From Okibacterium fritillariae (lineage in GTDB: Bacteria; Actinomycetota; Actinomycetes; Actinomycetales; Microbacteriaceae), in NCBI RefSeq assembly GCF_900167575.1, contig NZ_FUZP01000003.1, forward strand, positions 186,001 through 250,000: 64,000 nucleotides of DNA, written 5' to 3'. Below the pieces are notes generated by a model. The model searched no databases. It was not told the DNA's origin and saw only the letters and a program-made list of their open reading frames with translations. Positions within the stretch are counted from its first letter, which is position 1. Every line of letters begins with the position of its first letter. Shown here piece by piece: positions 33,440 to 60,518 of this stretch. The translations under genes were made by a program, and so were the position numbers.

Positions 33440-34114
33440 TCAGGCGACCGGCTCGGTGAGGCCGAGAAGCACAGCCGGGAGGACGCGACGCGCGTTGGCG
33501 CGGGCCAGGTCGTCGGTGGCGACATCCGGACCGGCGAGGATGGCGTCATAGGTGGCCTGCTGCGCGAGCGTCGTGATGATGCGGGTGGCCTGCAACGAGT
33601 CGATGGTGAAGCGTAGCCCGACCGTGCCGACGGCCTCTTCGAGCAGGCGGGCGAGACGCGTGTCGATGCGCGTCTCGTAGTCGATGTAGCGCGCGGCGAC
33701 CTCGGGGCTGCGCAGCGCGAGCGTGCGGAACTCGGACTCGACGATGCACCAGTGCCGGTCGTTGGGCTGCAGCAGCATGAAACGATCGACGATCTCGGCG
33801 ACGGCCTCGATGTCAAGGGACTCGACCGGCGTCGCGAGCGTGGGGAAGATGATGTCGATCCCCTCTTGGAGGCGGTCGAGACGCACACCGTTCTCGCGCT
33901 CGGCGAGGGCGAAGAAGAGCTCCTCCTTGCTCGCGAAGTTGGAGTAGAAGGCGCCGCGCGTGAATCCGGCGCGTTCGGTGACGGCCTCGATGGATGCGGC
34001 GTGCACACCTTGCTCGGCGAACACATCGAACGCGGCATCCATGAGGCGTTCGCGCGTCTTCTGGCGGCGAGCGGATTCGACAGCGGGTTCCACGTCTACG
34101 GGCTGGGTCGTCAT
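33440..34114 (-). CDS. TetR-family regulator of the MMPL/YhgE module
   Basis: A 224-residue TetR protein. The N-terminal helix-turn-helix is ERLMDAAFDVFAEQGVHAASIEAVTERAGFTRGAFYSNF written across residues 20-60 (split here only for reading); the rest is the helical ligand domain. The ATG at 34114 has AGGAAGGA upstream. It is divergent from the MMPL gene; the 116-bp space holds three palindromes on a 17-bp repeat, the likely operators for both. It probably represses the exporter until a lipid-like or toxic ligand binds. Confidence 0.9.
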   Translation of the reverse strand: MTTQPVDVEPAVESARRQKTRERLMDAAFDVFAEQGVHAASIEAVTERAGFTRGAFYSNFASKEELFFALAERENGVRLDRLQEGIDIIFPTLATPVESLDIEAVAEIVDRFMLLQPNDRHWCIVESEFRTLALRSPEVAARYIDYETRIDTRLARLLEEAVGTVGLRFTIDSLQATRIITTLAQQATYDAILAGPDVATDDLARANARRVLPAVLLGLTEPVA

Positions 34115-34149
34115 CCTGAATCCTTCCTGACACCGCGAACGAACGTTTG

Positions 34150-34200
34150 CGATACACGATTGTATCGAATACATTCGTGTATTGGATACGTCGTTGTATC
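34150..34200. promoter_or_regulatory. Three tandem TetR-type operators, 17-bp period
   Basis: GATACA-4-TGTATC (34151-34166), AATACA-4-TGTATT (34168-34183) and GATACG-4-TGTATC (34185-34200) share the RATACA-N4-TGTATY form and begin exactly 17 bp apart. The first and second are perfect inverted repeats; the third has one mismatch. They occupy the divergent promoter between tetR and the MMPL gene. Confidence 0.75.
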
Positions 34201-34230: not shown

Positions 34231-37200
34231 GTGTCCTCTCTGCTCTATGCCCTCGGCCGCTGGTCGTACCGCAGCCGCAAGCTCGTCCTCGTGCTGTGGA
34301 TCGCCGTGCTGGCCCTCGCGGGTGGCAGCGCGGCGCTCTTCAACCAGGGCACCGACAACGCGTTCTCCATTCCGGGCACCGAATCGCAGGAGGCCCTCGA
34401 CACGCTGTCGAGCACGTTCCCGCAGGTGAGCGGCGCGTCGGCGCAGATCATCGTCACGGTGCCCGAGGGCGACGACATCAGCGACCAAGACGTGCAAGAC
34501 GCCGTGAAGACGGCCGTCGACGATCTGGGCGACAGCGAGCAGGTCGCCGCCGCCACCGATCCGTTCGGCGAGAACGCCGCGGGGGCCATTGCCGACAACG
34601 ACCGAGCCGCGCTCATTTCCGTGCAGATGGATGTCGGTCAATCCGAGGTCACGGCCACCGCCAAGTCCGATCTCGAGAAGATCACCGACGAGCTCAACGA
34701 GGCTCTCCCCCAGGGCGCGAAGGCCACGCTCGGCGGGTCTCTCTTCGCCACCGAGCTGCCGGCCGTGACCATCACCGAGGGCGTCGGCCTCATCGTCGCG
34801 CTCGTCGTGCTCGTGCTCACCTTCGGCTCGTTCCTGGCCGCGGGCATGCCTCTCCTCAGCGCCATCCTGGGCGTCGGCATCTCGATCGCCCTCATCTTCG
34901 TGGCCACCATCTTCGGCCCGATCTCCTCGACCACGCCGCTGCTCGCGCTCATGCTCGGGCTCGCCGTCGGCATCGACTACGCGCTCTTCATCATCTCGAG
35001 GCACCAAGACCAGTTGCGGCAGGGCATGCAGCCCGAAGAGTCCGCCGCGCGCGCCGTGGCCACCGCCGGTTCGGCCGTCATCTTCGCCGGGCTCACGGTC
35101 GTCATCGCCCTGCTGGGCCTGAGCGTGGCGGGCATCCCGTTCCTGACCACCATGGGCACGGCCGCCGCTGTGGCCGTTGCCCTGGCCGTGTGCATCTCGC
35201 TCACCCTCATCCCGGCGCTGCTCGGCTTCGCCAAGGGTCGCATCAACCCCAACCGTCGCGCCCTGCGCAAGCAGGCGAAGGCCGAGGCCGGTTCACACAG
35301 CACCGATCGAGCGGATGTCGACACCGACGATTCCTCGACGCGCACAGGCTCCAGCGGCACAACCGGCGGCAGCGCTACCGGCATCGGCGCTCCCGTCGAC
35401 GCCCACGCGGCAAACGCCGCCTCGGATGCGACCGCTCCCGCCGAATCATCCCGCCCCGTCTCGGCGGCCGCCGCCTCGCGCGTCGACTCCGAGCCCGTTC
35501 TGCTCGAGAACCTCTTCGCCGAGGTCGACGGCGACACCGTGCAGACCACGCACGGGCGTTCGGGTGCGCACGCCGCCGCGATCACGACGCCGCCCGCCGC
35601 GGCATCCGCTCGCCCGGCCGGCTCGCCGCTCACGCAGGCCGACCAGAGCCGCCCCGCCATCGCCCCGCCGCCCGCCCCGGGCCCCAGCGACCAGGCCGTG
35701 CACCACCAGAACAAGTTCTTCAACGGCTGGGTGCGCGCCGTCACGCGCTTCCCGCTGCTCACGATCGTGCTGGTCGTCGGCATCCTCGGCCTCGCGGCTG
35801 TGCCCGCCCTGCAGCTGCGCCTCGGCCTGCCCGACGCCGGCTCGCTGCCCGCATCCTCGAGCGCTCGCCAGGCCTACGACCTCATCGGCGAGAACTTCGG
35901 CGAGGGCAAGAACGGTCCGCTCATCGTGACCGGTTCGATCGTCACGAGCAACGACCCCGTCGGCCTCATGAACGACATCGCCGACGAAATCCGCGACATG
36001 GATGGCGTCGACTCCGTGCCACTCGCCACCCCCAACGAAACCGCCGACACGGGCATCATCCAGGTCGTCCCGACGGGCGGGCCCGACTCGCAGTCCACCA
36101 AGGACCTCGTCGCCGACCTGCGCGCCCAGCACGACCACTTCGAGGACAAGTACGGCGTCGACCTGGCCGTCACGGGCACCACGGCGGCCGGCATCGACGT
36201 CTCCGACCGCCTGGGCGCAGCCCTGCTGCCCTTCGGCATCCTGGTCGTCGGCCTCTCGCTGATCCTGCTCACCATGGTGTTCCGCTCGATCTGGGTGCCC
36301 ATCAAGGCCACCCTCGGCTACCTGCTCAGCGTCATCGCGTCGTTCGGCGCCGTGGCCGCGGTCTTCGAATGGGGATGGTTCGGCGAGGCGTTGCATGTGG
36401 AACAGACCGGCCCCGTGATCAGCTTCATGCCGATCATCCTGATGGGCGTGCTGTTCGGCCTCGCGATGGACTACGAGGTGTTCCTCGTGGCCCGCATGCG
36501 GGAGGACTATGTGCACGGCAAGGATGCGCGCAAGGCCGTCACGACGGGCTTCGTGGGTTCGGCCAAGGTCGTCACGGCCGCCGCCGTCATCATGTTTGCC
36601 GTCTTCGCGGCCTTCGTGCCCGAGGGTGACACCTCGATCAAGCCCATCGCCCTGGGTCTCGCGGTCGGCGTGTTCGTCGACGCGTTCATCGTTCGCATGA
36701 CGCTCGTGCCCGCCGTGCTCGCCCTGCTGGGCGAACGTGCCTGGTGGCTGCCGAAGTGGCTCGACCGCGCCCTGCCGTCGTTCGACGTGGAGGGCGAGGG
36801 TCTGCAGCGCGAGCTCGACCTGGCCAACTGGCCCGCCCCCGGCAGCACGGATGTCGTGGTCGCCGACCGCATCGGCCTGAAACCGAGCGCCAACGCCGAA
36901 CACGCCCTCTTCCACGACCTCAGCTTCGTGCTCCCCGCCGGCCACACGCTCGTCGTGCACGGCGAACACCCCGCCGCGGTGCGCGCGCTGCTGCTCACGA
37001 TTTCGGGCCGCGCCAAACCCGACGAGGGCACGCTCAAGGTGGCCGGCCTGGTGTCGCCCATCCGCGCCACGACCATCCGCTCGCGCGTCGCCTTCCTCAC
37101 GGTCGACGACTCGGTCGATGCCGTCGGCCGCATCCGCGACATCGTCGACGAGCAGCCCGCGCTGCTCGTCATCGACGGCATCGACCGGCTCACCGACCAC

Positions 37201-37401
37201 GCCGCGCGCAAGCAGGTGTTCGTCGAGCTGAGTGAGGCTCAGGCATCCGCCGCCCGTCGCGACGCCACCCTCACCCTGGCCGTCGGCACCGTCGAAGAAT
37301 GGCCGCTGTCCGACGCGATCCCGGCCGGCGACGGGTTCGTCGACCTCCCCCTCGAAACATCTCGCACCCGCACCACGAACACCGCGGAGGTCCCCGCATG
37401 A
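34231..37401 (+). CDS. MMPL-family transporter with a degenerate ABC-ATPase-like C-terminus
   Basis: The 1056-residue protein has the two-half MMPL/RND plan: helix 1 at 17-37, membrane block about 185-335 with GLAVGIDYALFIISRH, and a second half about 505-835 with LFGLAMDYEVFLVARMRE. A 165-residue Ser/Ala/Thr/Pro-rich linker (335-500) separates the halves. Residues about 874-1043 look like an ABC ATPase (KPDEGTLKVAGL and a Walker-B-like ALLVIDGID), but Walker A is replaced by VVHGEHPAAVRALLL and no LSGGQ is present. GTG start with AAAGGAGAA. Probably exports lipids or hydrophobic compounds. Its stop overlaps the next start. Confidence 0.85.
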   Translation: MSSLLYALGRWSYRSRKLVLVLWIAVLALAGGSAALFNQGTDNAFSIPGTESQEALDTLSSTFPQVSGASAQIIVTVPEGDDISDQDVQDAVKTAVDDLGDSEQVAAATDPFGENAAGAIADNDRAALISVQMDVGQSEVTATAKSDLEKITDELNEALPQGAKATLGGSLFATELPAVTITEGVGLIVALVVLVLTFGSFLAAGMPLLSAILGVGISIALIFVATIFGPISSTTPLLALMLGLAVGIDYALFIISRHQDQLRQGMQPEESAARAVATAGSAVIFAGLTVVIALLGLSVAGIPFLTTMGTAAAVAVALAVCISLTLIPALLGFAKGRINPNRRALRKQAKAEAGSHSTDRADVDTDDSSTRTGSSGTTGGSATGIGAPVDAHAANAASDATAPAESSRPVSAAAASRVDSEPVLLENLFAEVDGDTVQTTHGRSGAHAAAITTPPAAASARPAGSPLTQADQSRPAIAPPPAPGPSDQAVHHQNKFFNGWVRAVTRFPLLTIVLVVGILGLAAVPALQLRLGLPDAGSLPASSSARQAYDLIGENFGEGKNGPLIVTGSIVTSNDPVGLMNDIADEIRDMDGVDSVPLATPNETADTGIIQVVPTGGPDSQSTKDLVADLRAQHDHFEDKYGVDLAVTGTTAAGIDVSDRLGAALLPFGILVVGLSLILLTMVFRSIWVPIKATLGYLLSVIASFGAVAAVFEWGWFGEALHVEQTGPVISFMPIILMGVLFGLAMDYEVFLVARMREDYVHGKDARKAVTTGFVGSAKVVTAAAVIMFAVFAAFVPEGDTSIKPIALGLAVGVFVDAFIVRMTLVPAVLALLGERAWWLPKWLDRALPSFDVEGEGLQRELDLANWPAPGSTDVVVADRIGLKPSANAEHALFHDLSFVLPAGHTLVVHGEHPAAVRALLLTISGRAKPDEGTLKVAGLVSPIRATTIRSRVAFLTVDDSVDAVGRIRDIVDEQPALLVIDGIDRLTDHAARKQVFVELSEAQASAARRDATLTLAVGTVEEWPLSDAIPAGDGFVDLPLETSRTRTTNTAEVPA

Positions 37402-39482
37402 GCATCCTCACCCGCCTCGAACGCGCGCGTTCCTCGAAGCGCATCACCGTGCTGTCGCTGATCGGTATCGTCCTGGTGCCGCTCGTGGTGGCCGGCATCC
37501 TCGTGTGGGCCCTCTTCAACCCGCAGGACCGGCTCGATCAGGTCACCGCGGCGATCGTGAACGAAGACGAGCCCGTGCAGGTCGAGGGCCAGACCGTGCC
37601 GCTCGGCCGCCAACTCTCGGCCGGTCTGGTCGACGGTGGCGCCTCGTCCGACGCGGGCGAAGACGGCACCTCGAAGGCCGCCGCCAACGACAACACGAGC
37701 GACACCAACTACGCCTGGAAGATCACCGACGCCGACGAGGCGCGCGAGGGTCTGACGTCGGGCAAATACGTGGCCGTCGTCACCATCCCGAAGAACTTCT
37801 CGAAGGCCGCGACCTCGTTCGGCGGCGATGCGGCCGACGCCGAGCAGGCCACCATCGACGTGGCCACCTCGAAACAGAGCCGCCTCGTCGACGACGCGAT
37901 CACGCAGACCATCTCGTCGACGGCCGCGAACCTCGTCGGCAACGGCCTCACCACGAGCTATCTACAGAACGTCTACGTGGGCTTCAACACGCTCGGCACG
38001 CAGCTCGGCCAGGCGGCGGATGGCGCGCAACAGCTCGCCACGGGAACAGACTCGTTGCGCGACGGCGCCGTGCAGCTCGCCGACGGCGTGAACCAGCTCG
38101 CGGCCGGGATGCCGCAGCTCACGTCCGGCGCCTCGCAGCTGGCCTCGGGCGCCGCCCAGACCAATACGGGTGCGCAGCAGTTGGCCAACGGGCTGAACGC
38201 CGCGGCCACCCAGGTCGGACAGTTGCCCGCGGGCATCCAGGCCATCGCCACCGGCTCGCAGACCCTCGCCGACGGCGTGCAGGGCGTGGCGACGGGTATC
38301 GCCGGCACCGGCGGATTGAACGAGCAGCTGGGCAAACTGTCGCAGGCTGCCGCTCTGTGCACCTCGGGAGGACCCGGGGCCGAGCAGGCCTGCCAGGGTG
38401 TGGCGCAGGGCGTGACCGCCCTCTACGGTTCACCGCAGTACCAGCAGCTGGTCGGCGGCGTACAGCCTCTCGCCGACGGCGCCCAGACCGCGGCCACCCA
38501 GATCCAGGGCTTCGCGGGCACCGCCCCGCAGCTCGCCTCCGGCATCCAGCAGCTCGCCGCCGGTTCGACGCAGCTCGCCAACGGCACCGCGCAGCTCTCG
38601 ACGGGAGCCTCCGGGCTCTCGACGGGTCTCACGACCCTCGCCGACGGCGTCACCCAGCTGGGCACGGGCGCGACGGGCCTCGCCGACGGGTCGAAAACCG
38701 TCGCCGACAGCACGCACACGCTGGCCGACGGCCTCGACACGGCCGTGCAGTCCATCCCGAGCTACAGCGAGTCCGACCGCGACAACCTCGCCAAGGTGGT
38801 GAGCCAGCCCGTCACGACCGACGGCGCCGAGGCGAACGCGCTCTTCGGCACCACGAGCATGCCGTTCTACGCCGTTCTCGCCCTGTGGCTGGGCGCGTTG
38901 GCCACGTTCATCGTGTTGCGCGCCATCCCCTCGGCCGTTCTGTCGTCGACGCGTTCGTCGCTCAGCCTGGCCGTGCGCACGTGGCTGCCCGCCGGTCTCG
39001 TCGGCATCCTGCAGGGGCTGCTGGTCTCGGCCGTGATGCAGCCCGCGCTGAAGCTCGACGCGCCCGAGTGGATCGGTTTTGCGGCCATCGCCATGGTCGC
39101 CGGCGCCGCCTTCGCCGCAGCCAACCAGGCTCTCATCGCCGTCTTCGGCGGGTTCGGTCGCTTCATCTCGATGATCGTCACGCTCGTCACCCTGGCGACG
39201 GGCATCATCGCGACGGTGCCCGATCTGCTCGACACCGTGTTCGAGTACACGCCCGTGCAACCGGCGCTCAACGCCCTGCGCGCCATGGCCCTCGAGACCG
39301 GAGGCGTGGTCGCGGGCGTCACGGGCATCGTGCTCTGGCTGCTGCTCTCGCTCGTCGTCACCACGCTCGCGATCGCCCGACGCCGCAGCGTGTCGGCGGC
39401 GCAGCTGCGGGCCCTCGGCGAGGCATCGGCTCCCGAACCGTCGTCGGCCCGCACCGGCGCTCGAACCCCGGCGACCGTCTGA
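37398..39482 (+). CDS. YhgE/Pip-family membrane protein (module 1)
   Basis: The 694-residue protein has one N-terminal helix (about 17-42), a 440-residue external region, and five to six C-terminal helices (about 487-690). The external region contains recurring short repeats such as LADG and LATG (GVNQLAAG, GASQLASG), characteristic of YhgE/Pip (phage infection protein) and EsaA-like proteins. The C-terminal helices resemble ABC-2 type membrane domains. It overlaps the MMPL stop by ATGA, so translation is coupled. A strong hairpin terminator closes the operon. Function likely envelope-linked export or scaffold. Confidence 0.85.
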   Translation: MSILTRLERARSSKRITVLSLIGIVLVPLVVAGILVWALFNPQDRLDQVTAAIVNEDEPVQVEGQTVPLGRQLSAGLVDGGASSDAGEDGTSKAAANDNTSDTNYAWKITDADEAREGLTSGKYVAVVTIPKNFSKAATSFGGDAADAEQATIDVATSKQSRLVDDAITQTISSTAANLVGNGLTTSYLQNVYVGFNTLGTQLGQAADGAQQLATGTDSLRDGAVQLADGVNQLAAGMPQLTSGASQLASGAAQTNTGAQQLANGLNAAATQVGQLPAGIQAIATGSQTLADGVQGVATGIAGTGGLNEQLGKLSQAAALCTSGGPGAEQACQGVAQGVTALYGSPQYQQLVGGVQPLADGAQTAATQIQGFAGTAPQLASGIQQLAAGSTQLANGTAQLSTGASGLSTGLTTLADGVTQLGTGATGLADGSKTVADSTHTLADGLDTAVQSIPSYSESDRDNLAKVVSQPVTTDGAEANALFGTTSMPFYAVLALWLGALATFIVLRAIPSAVLSSTRSSLSLAVRTWLPAGLVGILQGLLVSAVMQPALKLDAPEWIGFAAIAMVAGAAFAAANQALIAVFGGFGRFISMIVTLVTLATGIIATVPDLLDTVFEYTPVQPALNALRAMALETGGVVAGVTGIVLWLLLSLVVTTLAIARRRSVSAAQLRALGEASAPEPSSARTGARTPATV

Positions 39483-56183: not shown

Positions 56184-56187
<4 letters not shown>
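55498..56187 (-). CDS. Osmoprotectant ABC transporter permease (first)
   Basis: A 229-residue BPD-type permease, with IPPILLGFILAVPIGYIAHR at the start and the EAA-type loop QSATAMGYGPWSRFWKVELPLAGP. It ends in a basic tail. The ATG at 56187 overlaps the ATPase stop. It is the heterodimer partner of the second permease. Confidence 0.93.
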
Positions 56188-57011
<824 letters not shown>

Positions 57012-57189
57012 GCCTGCCTTGCCTTTCTGGATGAACGCGAAGGCATTCATGCGCCGTGAACACGCGGTGCGAAAGCGATGCGTGATCCGTGTCTACGAGG
57101 TACGTACGACACCGGCCAGAAGGGGCGACACAATCCGGGGCGTGCAGAGTGAGCGATCAGAGAATCTCTCGCTCCACCTAGCCGGTAGA

Positions 57190-57280: not shown

Positions 57281-57304
57281 ATCTTGCACACGACTGTGCA
57301 AGAT
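57281..57304. promoter_or_regulatory. Perfect 24-bp inverted repeat, TetR operator
   Basis: ATCTTGCACA (57281-57290) and TGTGCAAGAT (57295-57304) flank CGAC. The repeat covers the -35 box and part of the spacer of the tetR promoter, so binding would block transcription of the module. Confidence 0.8.
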
Positions 57305-57312
57305 CGTACGAT
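57284..57312 (+). promoter_or_regulatory. Promoter of the second TetR/YhgE module
   Basis: TTGCAC (57284-57289), 17 bp, TACGAT (57307-57312). Transcription would start near 57320, where a GTG in frame begins the TetR protein, giving a leaderless mRNA. Confidence 0.6.
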
Positions 57313-57319
57313 GGATATC

Positions 57320-57955
57320 GTGACCACAACATCCCCCGACCGCCCCGCCCGGCGCGACGCCACCCGCAACCGCGCGGCACTCATCGACGCCGCCATGGTC
57401 GAGTTGCGAGACGACCCCGACGCCAGCCTCGACGCCATCGCCGCCCGCGCCGGCCTGTCGCGCCGCGCCGTCTACGGCCACTTCGCCACACGCGAAGACC
57501 TCGTGCTCACGGTTGTCGAAGCCGGCGCGGCGCGCATCGCCCAGGGCATCGGCACGGTCGACACCGACGACAGCCGGGTCGCGATCGCCACCATCGGCGC
57601 GCGGCTCTGGGCGTCCGTGTCGCATGTGCGAGTGATGGCCGACCTGGCCGTGCGCGGGCCCTACCGGTCCACCGTGGCCGCCGCGCTCGCGCCCATCCGG
57701 CGAACGTTGCGGGATGTGATCGAAGACGGCGTGTCGCGGGGGCAGTTGCGGCGCGACATCCCGCCCGCCGTCGTCGCCCGGCTCGTCGAGGATGCCGCGC
57801 TCACCGTTCTCGGCGAGGCCACGCGCTCGGGGATCGACGACGACCACGCCGCGCGACTGGTCATGCTCGCGGGTCTGAGCGGTGCCGGGCTCGGATGGCA
57901 GGAGGCCGGGCTCGTGGTCGACGAAACGCTGCGCAACGGATTGGTGAACGCATGA
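57320..57955 (+). CDS. TetR-family regulator of the pseudo-ATPase/YhgE module
   Basis: A 211-residue TetR protein: NRAALIDAAMVELRDDPDAS followed by the recognition unit AGLSRRAVYGHFATREDLV, then the ligand domain. GTG at 57320 is favoured because it coincides with the predicted transcription start; ATG at 57311 would add three residues but lies in the -10 box. The 24-bp palindrome directly upstream is its likely operator. The stop overlaps the next start (ATGA). Low similarity to the other TetR protein suggests separate origin. Confidence 0.88.
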   Translation: MTTTSPDRPARRDATRNRAALIDAAMVELRDDPDASLDAIAARAGLSRRAVYGHFATREDLVLTVVEAGAARIAQGIGTVDTDDSRVAIATIGARLWASVSHVRVMADLAVRGPYRSTVAAALAPIRRTLRDVIEDGVSRGQLRRDIPPAVVARLVEDAALTVLGEATRSGIDDDHAARLVMLAGLSGAGLGWQEAGLVVDETLRNGLVNA

Positions 57956-58626
57956 GAGTCGAACTTGCAGACGTGACGAAAGGTCGGGATGCGTCCTCGC
58001 TCCCCGCCACCTCGCTGTCGTTCCAGACGGGCAGTGCCACGTTCTCGCGCGCCGAGACGGCGCAGCGTCCCACGGTGTTGGGGCTCATCGCATCCGGCCG
58101 CATGAAGCCCGAGACCGGAAGCGTGACGATCGACGGCACGCCCGACACCAAACGCATGCGCGCCGAGATCGCGCTCATCGATGCCCCGGATGTCTGCGAG
58201 CCCAACAGCAACGCCACCGTCGCGGGTGTCACGGCCGAAGAGCTCATGTTCGCCGGCCGCCCCGACCACCCCGTCGCCGTCAGCCGCTGGCTCGCCGAAC
58301 ACGGCTGGCAGGAGTTGTCGCGCACCACGATGGCCACCCTCGAACCCACTACACGCGTGCGCCTGCTCACCGAACTGGCCATCCTGCGCCAGGGCGTCGG
58401 CGCGCTCGTCATCGTCTCGCCCGACCGCCACGGCGGCAACCCGCTCGATTGGTGGCGCGTGGCCCGACAGCTGGCGGCGCGCGGCTACGCCGTGCTCGTC
58501 ATCGCGGGCGATGCGGCGGCCACCGCCATCGACGCCAACACCATCCAGAAAGTGTCGAGCACCGTGCCCGCCGACACCGTGCCTCTCTTCGGCACCACCG
58601 ACGAAACTTCGGAGAACCCGGCGTGA
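57952..58626 (+). CDS. Degenerate ABC-ATPase-like protein
   Basis: The 224-residue protein follows the order of an ABC ATPase: A-loop-like start MRVELADVTKG, core strand, KPETGSVTIDG after the P-loop position, the region where LSGGQ belongs (LEPTTRVRLLTELAIL), and GALVIVSPD at Walker B. But Walker A is missing (FSRAETAQRPTVLGLI in place of GxxGxGKST), the signature is lost, and Walker B lacks the DE pair. It is not frame-shifted; length is normal. It overlaps the TetR stop and the YhgE start. I infer a non-hydrolysing partner of the YhgE/Pip protein. Confidence 0.75.
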   Translation: MRVELADVTKGRDASSLPATSLSFQTGSATFSRAETAQRPTVLGLIASGRMKPETGSVTIDGTPDTKRMRAEIALIDAPDVCEPNSNATVAGVTAEELMFAGRPDHPVAVSRWLAEHGWQELSRTTMATLEPTTRVRLLTELAILRQGVGALVIVSPDRHGGNPLDWWRVARQLAARGYAVLVIAGDAAATAIDANTIQKVSSTVPADTVPLFGTTDETSENPA

Positions 58627-60518
58627 AGATCTTTGCCATGGTGCGAGCCGAGCTCGCCCGCCTCTGGTCCACCAAGATGGCCCGCCTCGCCCTCGTGGCG
58701 CTCATGTGCGTGCCCATCATCTATGGCGGGCTCTACCTCTGGGCCAACCAAGACCCCTACTCCAAGCTCGACCAGGTGCCCGTTGCCCTCGTCGTGAGCG
58801 ACACCGGTGCGGATGACAACGGCACGACGACCAACTTCGGTAATGACGTCGCCGACCAGCTGATCGAAGACGGCAGCTTCCAGTGGCACCGCGTGAGCGC
58901 CAAGAACGCAGCCGTGGGTGTGAAGAACGGCGCCTACGACTTCTCGGTCACGCTGCCGAGCAACTTCTCGCAATCACTCACGTCCTCCGACAGCGACAAC
59001 CCGCGCCAGGCCGAGGTGCTGCTTACCACGAACGACGCCAACAGCTACCTCGCGTCGACGATCGGCGAGCAGGCCGTCAAGACGATCCAGACATCCATCG
59101 TGAAGACCGTGAACGAGAAGGCCGCCAACACGTTCCTGGATGGTTTGGCCGAGGTGCGCGTGAACCTCGTCGACGCCGTCGACGGCACGCAGAAACTGCT
59201 CGACGGCGCCAACACGGCCGTCGACGGGTCGGCGCAGCTGGCCGACGGCACCGCTCAGCTCGCCACGGGAAGCGCCACGCTGCGCGACGGCCTGGCCGAG
59301 CTGCAGTCGAAGACCGCGTCGCTGCCCGCCCAGAGCGCGCAACTCGCCGCCGGCGCGGCCCAGGTGGCCGCCGGAAACCAGAAGATCGCCGGCTATGGCA
59401 CCCAGGTCGCCGGTGTCACGCAGCAGATCGCCGACGAGGTGCCCGCCGCCCGCGCCCGCATCCAACAGGACCTCACCGACCTCGGCCTCGATCAGGCGCA
59501 GATCGACCGCGTGCTCGCGGGCCTCGACCCGCTCGGGCAGCGCATCACGTCGGGCAATCAGCAGGTGCAGGCCGCGGCCGGGCAGCTCAATACCCTCGCG
59601 TCGGGCGCACAGCAGGTGGCCACGGGTGCGCAGGCGTTGGCGGATGCTTCGCCCGCGCTCGTGCAGGGCATCGGGCAGGCCGCATCCGGTTCGAGCCAGC
59701 TGGCCGACGGTGCGAGCCAGGCCAACGACGGCGCACAATCGCTCGCCAGCGGTCTCGTCACCCTGCGCGACGGGTTGCAGACCCTCGAGGATGGGCTGTC
59801 GAGCGGTGTCTCACAGATCCCCGACAACACGGATGCGCAGCGCGACGCTCAGGCGAAGAACATCGCCGACCCGGTGACGCTCAAGAACACGGCCGTCACC
59901 TCGGCGGGCACCTACGGTGCCGGACTCGCGCCGTTCTTCGTGTCGCTCGCCGCCTGGATCGGCATCTATGCGCTGTTCCTCATCGTGAAACCCGTGTCGC
60001 GGCGCGCCATCACGGCGCTGCACTCGCCCATCAAGGTGACGCTGGCCGGATGGATCACACCCGGCGCGCTCGGGGCCATCCAGATGGTCGCGTTGTTCGG
60101 CGTGTTGGCCGGGGCGCTGCACTTCGAGATTCAGAACCCGATCGGCACCTACGGCATGATGGTGCTCGCGTCGCTGACCTTCACCGCGATCATCCTGGCG
60201 CTGAACATCTGGCTGGGCAGCGTGGGGCAGTTCCTCGGGCTCGTGCTCATGGTGCTGCAGCTGGTGACCGCCGGCGGCACGTTCCCGTGGCAGACCCTGC
60301 CCGAGCCGCTCGCGTGGTTGCACCACTTCTTGCCCATGGGCTTCGCGGTCGACGGCATCCGGCAGCTCATGTACGGCGGCGATGCGGCGGCGGCCGGGCA
60401 CGACGCCATCCTGCTCGCCCTCGTGCTGGTCGGCGCGCTCGTGGTGGCCGCCATCGGCGTCACGCGCATGACCCACTTCCGCACGCTGCGCGACCTGCAG
60501 CCGAGCCTCATCGGCTAG
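58623..60518 (+). CDS. YhgE/Pip-family membrane protein (module 2)
   Basis: A 631-residue protein with the same plan as the product of 37398-39482: N-terminal helix (about 20-40, LALVALMCVPIIYGGLYLW), an external region with repeated LADG and LATG units (GSAQLADGTAQLATG), and five to six C-terminal helices (from about 433). GTG overlaps the stop of the pseudo-ATPase (GTGA). It lacks an MMPL partner in this module. Role inferred as an envelope-spanning export or scaffold protein. Confidence 0.87.
   Translation: MKIFAMVRAELARLWSTKMARLALVALMCVPIIYGGLYLWANQDPYSKLDQVPVALVVSDTGADDNGTTTNFGNDVADQLIEDGSFQWHRVSAKNAAVGVKNGAYDFSVTLPSNFSQSLTSSDSDNPRQAEVLLTTNDANSYLASTIGEQAVKTIQTSIVKTVNEKAANTFLDGLAEVRVNLVDAVDGTQKLLDGANTAVDGSAQLADGTAQLATGSATLRDGLAELQSKTASLPAQSAQLAAGAAQVAAGNQKIAGYGTQVAGVTQQIADEVPAARARIQQDLTDLGLDQAQIDRVLAGLDPLGQRITSGNQQVQAAAGQLNTLASGAQQVATGAQALADASPALVQGIGQAASGSSQLADGASQANDGAQSLASGLVTLRDGLQTLEDGLSSGVSQIPDNTDAQRDAQAKNIADPVTLKNTAVTSAGTYGAGLAPFFVSLAAWIGIYALFLIVKPVSRRAITALHSPIKVTLAGWITPGALGAIQMVALFGVLAGALHFEIQNPIGTYGMMVLASLTFTAIILALNIWLGSVGQFLGLVLMVLQLVTAGGTFPWQTLPEPLAWLHHFLPMGFAVDGIRQLMYGGDAAAAGHDAILLALVLVGALVVAAIGVTRMTHFRTLRDLQPSLIG

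Follow-up and report, generated by a model that had tools for sequence, protein, structure and literature searches.

The subject of this analysis is a gene pair in a 64,000-nucleotide stretch of the Okibacterium fritillariae genome (contig NZ_FUZP01000003.1, positions 186,001 to 250,000; hereafter the window), in which an MMPL-family transporter with a degenerate ABC nucleotide-binding domain (pseudo-NBD) at its C-terminus is followed by a YhgE/Pip ABC-2-type permease. The MMPL gene (34231..37401, plus strand) encodes 1055 residues. Its reading frame is open from a TTG at 34147, from which the residue numbers of a first-pass annotation made from the sequence alone were counted, and its likely start is the GTG at 34231, right behind AAAGGAG. 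The protein matches PF03176 (MMPL) in two stretches (301.5 bits, cut-off 20.5, E 8.6e-90). The pseudo-NBD segment (36784..37398, plus strand) comprises the final 205 residues: the first 20 form a conserved linker after transmembrane helix 12, DVEGEGLQRELDLANWP, which joins the last membrane helix to a soluble domain of about 185 residues, whose fold starts near 36847. The permease gene (37398..39482, plus strand) overlaps the MMPL gene by ATGA (37398–37401).

The first-pass annotation had noted an ABC ATPase core pattern in the MMPL C-terminus, including KPDEGTLKVAGL and a Walker-B-like ALLVIDGID. Both are found in this segment. As a single sequence, the domain matches known ABC ATPases weakly: it scores 16.7 bits against PF00005 (ABC_tran; E 0.012, curated cut-off 25), the segment cut at 36784 has no Pfam match at E 0.01, and 11 of its 65 relatives match PF00005 at that level. 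In contrast, a profile built on the 65 relatives retrieved EcfA1 from the PDB at E 8.9e-10, in an alignment that skips EcfA residues 93–145, a section comprising the helical subdomain and the first part of the signature motif. The AlphaFold2 model of 36784–37398 has a predicted local distance difference test score (pLDDT) of 91.7 and a predicted template modeling score of 0.87. The top Foldseek matches of this model in the PDB are ABC ATPases, the first at E 5.5e-10, and VIA-align gave Z scores of 16.4 (168 residues aligned, root-mean-square deviation (rmsd) 5.5) and 16.1 (160 aligned, rmsd 2.6). The profile, fold and Z results place the homology to ABC NBDs above chance, and a chance resemblance is thereby ruled out. 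Structure prediction and structural comparison, the checks proposed with the original observation, thus returned the ABC NBD fold and not an unrelated one, and the predicted structure confirms the assignment of the domain.

To examine the catalytic motifs of this fold, we aligned the domain with two yardstick NBDs of the ordinary kind, one of them encoded by the window's own 56184–57050 (PF00005, 1.1e-32). In place of the Walker A motif GxxGxGK[ST], the pseudo-NBD has HGEHPAAVRALL, with the former loop, HGEHPAAV (36958..36981, plus strand), lacking GK[ST]. The region of the LSGGQ signature is deleted, as is the helical subdomain. In the Walker-B-like strand LLVIDGID (37162..37185, plus strand), the position of the catalytic Glu is taken by Gly, and no aligned switch His is present. 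The absence of Walker A and LSGGQ, already claimed from the sequence, therefore holds. Reasoning from the known NBD dimer, a domain that lacks both Walker A and the signature can supply neither half of an ATP sandwich, so no complete ATP site is expected with any partner.

The fusion had been called unusual. This is true among the MMPL proteins of its own genome, where the pseudo-NBD accompanies, within the stretches fetched, only this gene's share of the ten PF03176 matches; it is not true of Actinobacteria, in which the fusion is widespread. The profile search that had been suggested for MMPL proteins fused to this domain brought the collection to 122 fusions (119 distinct cores), drawn from two surveys, the window gene and six findings of later searches, and each is followed by a YhgE/Pip gene. 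Matches to the pseudo-NBD occur in 40 of the 99 genomes searched, its own included; the 40 regions taken from 42 places outside this genome hold 37 fusions and three stand-alone genes, with YhgE alongside in all 40. In a survey of named genomes, limited to the best 80 of 547 loci, YhgE is the next gene in all 78 loci with sequence past the stop codon, the other two ending too soon to show it. The two surveys overlap: L031 and L071 come from one contig, as do L046 and L098. Among these best 80 loci, the nearest relative is that of Leifsonia sp. ALI-44-B (98%), and the genera with fusions include Leifsonia, Mycetocola, Rathayibacter, Plantibacter, Microbacterium, Agromyces, Cellulosimicrobium, Isoptericola, Promicromonospora, Cellulomonas, Brevibacterium, Saccharopolyspora, Paractinoplanes, Enemella and Granulicoccus. 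A plasmid collection contained no relative of the pseudo-NBD at E 1e-5. Among open-licence PMC papers, we found no earlier account of an MMPL–NBD fusion or of YhgE-linked pseudo-NBDs.

Stand-alone relatives of the domain point to its origin. We searched 396 genomes of the phylum with the domain profile alone, without information on YhgE, scoring eight candidates per genome. Besides fusions, this search listed 17 stand-alone genes (E up to 1.7e-11), 16 of which sit directly upstream of a YhgE gene; because many of them belong to just two or three families, the 16 cases are not all independent. In a reverse survey with TIGR03061, 148 genomes of the class yielded 39 YhgE genes over the cut-off. 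Among the 35 examined, 34 have an NBD-like open reading frame (ORF) directly upstream, in three cases as part of an MMPL fusion. The remaining four are the window's own gene, that of G319, which goes with a fusion (L168), and those of G362:C2 and G351, for which the phylum-wide search placed a fusion 20–40 bases upstream of the YhgE match. One further YhgE gene, below the cut-off, lies behind a fusion (L170). On plasmids, a Tsukamurella ‘hypothetical protein’ (L223:1321–1989) and an Arthrobacter ‘ABC transporter ATP-binding protein’, each encoded before YhgE, scored 187.7 and 63.5 bits, respectively, against the stand-alone profile. Given these stand-alone relatives, the reverse survey and the plasmid genes, the simplest reading of the fused domain is that of a YhgE partner subunit that appears to have been joined to MMPL. 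By profile, the Tsukamurella protein is itself a pseudo-NBD, and similar misannotations are likely.

The loss of catalytic motifs extends across the family. Pattern searches found no signature motif in the 35 partner sequences (34 genes and one cut duplicate) encoded upstream of YhgE or in the 122 fusions; of 30 ABC loci of the ordinary kind from the O. fritillariae genome, which served as controls, 29 had it, and in 25 the signature, Walker A and Walker B with Glu occurred together. Likewise, the alignment with the two yardstick NBDs showed neither LSGGQ nor an aligned catalytic Glu in the YhgE partners, and an aligned switch His is absent from them, perhaps with the exception of L192. The Q-loop Gln is missing throughout, but also from the yardstick L165, which makes this column weak evidence. 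Walker A decays separately from the other motifs in the YhgE partners: GxxGxGK[ST] is present in two of the 35 sequences and a K or R form in 16. Strict Walker A is found in nine fusions (two of which, L169 and L201, are one gene), the Arg form in seven, and neither the K nor the R form in 106. Many of these domains retain the Walker B Asp. A strict Walker B pattern (DE followed by P or A) had two matches, the fusion L149 and the partner gene L194 (the same as L203); a looser pattern matched L139, L145 and L149 with the Glu in place, its other matches, including those among the 34 partners, lying elsewhere in the sequence.

Because an intact Walker A persists in some relatives, the loss of this motif occurred within the family, and its states require at least nine changes on a tree of the MMPL cores built by a quick method. 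On a quick tree, the 12 sequences that have the helical region group together (SH-aLRT support 97), and this group includes the three with a Walker A of the GPSGSGKT type (L169/L201 and L202). The grouping was read off the tree itself; a 240-residue cut for ‘long’ fusions mislabels some with long tails and needs six changes on the tree.

The YhgE/Pip protein encoded behind the MMPL gene matches the N-terminal domain TIGR03061 (118.1 bits, cut-off 96.15) and the ABC-2 family PF12698 (ABC2_membrane_3; 53.1 bits, cut-off 31.6, E 3.5e-14), and stays below the cut-off of the C-terminal domain TIGR03062 (76.3 against 102.2 bits, E 2.4e-21). Its model (mean pLDDT 73.3, with 73 to 97 for the ten-residue blocks of positions 491 to 670) shows one N-terminal helix, a mixed and then long helical part and a C-terminal domain; the first and last of these would be embedded in the membrane and the middle part extracellular. 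A short helix (512–515) lies between the predicted membrane helices of the C-terminal domain. In VIA-align, the membrane part ranked ABCG16, ABCG5/8, ABCG2 and Pdr5 at the top (Z 17.8 to 17.2 over 206–221 residues; best match Z 17.8, 217 aligned, rmsd 3.7), and all 50 listed matches are of the ABCG, PDR, ABCH or ABCA type. YhgE is thus modeled as an ABCG-like (ABC-2, type V) permease, the class on which NBDs dock. Docking of the pseudo-NBD on YhgE, raised in the first-pass annotation as a possible role for the fusion, gains comparative support from this model and from the stand-alone relatives upstream of YhgE.

The domain is under purifying selection. In the comparison with Leifsonia sp. ALI-44-B, the ratio of nonsynonymous to synonymous substitution rates (dN/dS) was 0.074 for the domain, 0.10 for the MMPL core and 0.029 for YhgE. 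Conservation is unevenly distributed along the domain: over 65 rows, majority identity was 0.74 in the linker, a mean of 0.68 in the stretch G-LKV-G--LP-R---VR-R before the former Q-loop (GTLKVAGLVSPIRATTIRSR; 37027..37086, plus strand), and 0.39 in the former P-loop. In solved ABC transporters, the Q-loop region lies close to the permease, and this stretch is a candidate docking surface.

We propose that the pseudo-NBD is a dead ABC subunit retained as a docking adaptor that ties a proton-driven MMPL pump to the YhgE permease, an account that we consider fairly probable. The domain would have originated as the ABC ATPase subunit of a YhgE/Pip permease, lost its catalytic motifs and then become, by fusion, the C-terminal part of an MMPL pump, after which Walker A and the helical subdomain would have been lost in most lineages. 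As a non-hydrolyzing cytoplasmic adaptor, it would still be seated on the coupling loop of a YhgE dimer, and the fusion would fix both transporters in one complex, with MMPL placed at the cytoplasmic face of the YhgE dimer. MMPL, presumably the only source of energy, would gather and move a hydrophobic, lipid-like substrate, which YhgE might accept or release outside through its long extracellular helical domain. The data suggest that these bacteria have converted a dead motor into a clamp that holds together two pumps of different kinds. MMPL might drive YhgE or only have a substrate in common with it, and energy transfer from one to the other is a hypothesis: that the complex is a hybrid exporter, in which an ABC-2 permease with a dead motor receives the proton-driven conformational change of the RND pump and so works as an ABC-type channel on proton motive force, is a tentative extension that we rather doubt.

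Several observations weigh against the docking account. One over-cut-off YhgE gene (L206) has no NBD-like neighbor, and five partner genes, L187, L188, L190, L196 and the window's own L171 (57952..58626), match the stand-alone profile weakly (E 5e-6 to 2e-11, calculated for a small ORF set); for the last of these, Pfam gave no ABC match. Of 15 regions with YhgE below the cut-off (L207–L221), 14 have no NBD-like ORF upstream, and the fifteenth, L211, is not recognized by the YhgE profile. YhgE genes in the three records of Deinococcus, Latilactobacillus and Listeria inspected also lack an NBD neighbor, and so YhgE can exist without such an adaptor. Foldseek gave no match below 1e-3 for the YhgE model (best 0.031, to a domain of a putative type-2 ABC transporter), and the ABCG likeness consequently rests on VIA-align and the Pfam ABC-2 matches. 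The dN/dS values are based on a single pair of species, between which the domain has 25 changes. Motif decay is also uneven: besides the nine of 122 fusions that keep a strict Walker A, the Saccharopolyspora fusions L139, L145 and L149 have lost Walker A and the signature but retain the Glu after Walker B, and two of them (L139 and L145) have, in addition, VTHQ, which possibly contains the switch His. In the partner L192, a His one residue off the aligned switch position is possibly the switch His, and the motif table shows a His there in L191 as well.

Other roles for the domain can be weighed on the same evidence. As a passive tether, it would set stoichiometry and co-localization while MMPL and YhgE pump separately, with no energy passed between them. 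The loss of catalytic and switch motifs in the window protein and the freely varying former P-loop are what such a tether would allow, and we regard it as possible though doubtful: that the pre-Q-loop stretch and the entire core fold are conserved suggests a contact for which shape is critical, and a simple tether should not need a complete NBD core. Alternatively, the domain might bind ATP or another nucleotide without hydrolysis and gate the MMPL–YhgE complex. The strict Walker A motifs among the fusions, the K or R forms upstream of YhgE and the widely kept Walker B Asp would suit a nucleotide sensor, whereas the window protein has no Walker A, the great majority of fusions have neither the K nor the R form, and the repeated changes of Walker A on the tree are hard to fit with one; we consider this role unlikely.

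Asymmetric ABC transporters with degenerate half-sites are known, and the pseudo-NBD could by analogy with such exporters fill a non-catalytic slot while a canonical NBD encoded elsewhere, for which the 91 PF00005 matches in the genome offer candidates, powers YhgE in trans. The window form, however, lacks both half-sites, so that not even one composite ATP site should be possible, and no NBD-like ORF upstream of YhgE in the survey carries a signature motif; powering in trans therefore appears quite improbable. That the domain is a decaying remnant without function would agree with the unequal extent to which members of the family have lost motifs and the helical subdomain, but is very hard to reconcile with the low dN/dS of the domain, its high-confidence fold and its retention in fusions of many genera, and we give it scant credence. 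A pseudogene is likewise disfavored by dN/dS and conservation.

The system shares features with several known ones and differs from each. The transporter core is that of the MMPL/RND transporters (PF03176; MmpL3-like), from which it differs by the pseudo-NBD; we know of no MmpL protein carrying an NBD. With ABC-2/ABCG-type (type V) exporters, the system shares the YhgE membrane part and an NBD-like subunit encoded adjacent to it, but here that subunit has no signature motif and is part of a proton-driven pump, and YhgE has a long, presumably extracellular helical heptad part (TIGR03057 repeats). The core fold is shared with the NBDs EcfA/CbiO, LolD and FtsE (Z about 14–16), whereas Walker A, the Q-loop Gln, LSGGQ, the catalytic Glu, the switch His and the helical subdomain are not. 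YhgE/Pip of Bacillota (phage infection protein) belongs to the same permease family by annotation and tblastn matches, but the three non-actinobacterial records inspected have no annotated NBD or MMPL neighbor, nor an NBD by profile.

RND and ABC exporters are regarded as distinct machines, each with its own source of energy; here, the two meet in a single polypeptide whose ABC half lacks a usable ATP site. The family provides a natural series, from full-length fusions that still have Walker A (L201/L202 type) down to the minimal form of the window, which makes the ATP-free working of an ABC-fold permease directly testable. The proposal also assigns a putative partner and adaptor role to YhgE/Pip, a widespread family for which we found no settled function in the literature, and would re-annotate genes now named ‘hypothetical protein’ or ‘ABC transporter ATP-binding protein’. 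In the more doubtful case of a hybrid exporter run on proton motive force, the pseudo-NBDs associated with YhgE would make up an entire actinobacterial family of ABC subunits that work independently of ATP.

Upstream of the MMPL gene lies a divergent TetR-family regulator (33440..34108, minus strand; Pfam TetR_N, E 2.2e-15). The interval between the two genes contains three operator-like palindromes, ATACR-N4-TGTAT (34152..34199), which start at 34152, 34169 and 34186 and are inverted repeats spaced 17 nucleotides apart. Among the best 80 of the 547 loci, 63 of the 75 named loci with enough sequence have a TetR-like ORF upstream of the fused MMPL gene; in L089, L125 and L143, the ORF counted is not adjacent to it. 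The pattern ATACR-N3/4-YGTAT occurs in a 400-base stretch around the start of the MMPL frame in 42 of 78 loci (86 sites), as against 54 sites in the 772,840 bases outside these stretches; the window's sites have the 4-base spacer, and the form with the 3-base spacer has no match in the window. According to a published RNA sequencing study of Saccharopolyspora hirsuta (PMC9782250), a YhgE/Pip gene (F1721_04135) and an MMPL gene (F1721_04140) with neighboring locus tags changed 3.82-fold and 3.33-fold, respectively, on exposure to cholesterol. Fusions occur in other Saccharopolyspora species (L086, L139, L145, L148 and L149, from the best 80 loci), and F1721_04140 is presumably one as well. The divergent TetR gene, the recurring operator-like sites and these expression data point to the MMPL–YhgE system being an inducible exporter, which may handle hydrophobic compounds or lipids.

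A second YhgE operon lies at 57284–60518 of the window, with three genes head to tail: a TetR-family gene (57284..57955, plus strand; Pfam TetR_N, 4.4e-08, 33.2 bits over a cut-off of 24), a stand-alone pseudo-NBD (L171; 57952..58626, plus strand) and a second YhgE/Pip gene (58623..60518, plus strand; TIGR03061 189.2 bits; ABC2_membrane_3 2.8e-22 and ABC2_membrane 3.6e-07, both over the cut-off). The genes overlap by four bases each, ATGA between the first two and GTGA between the last two. The middle gene has neither Walker A nor the signature in the motif table and is probably paralogous to the fused domain, judging from its position and from a weak match to the profile (E 6e-07, calculated for a small ORF set). 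The genome thus seems to encode two YhgE systems: in one the dead subunit is free, and in the other it is attached to a proton pump. A similar pairing was seen in genomes G052 (L060, L061) and G018 (L040, L066), where a fused MMPL–NBD and YhgE pair lies beside a separate stand-alone NBD and YhgE pair. Adjoining the second operon on the opposite strand, the gene that served as yardstick (56184–57050) encodes an ordinary ABC ATPase with all motifs, of the glycine-betaine type by its appearance.

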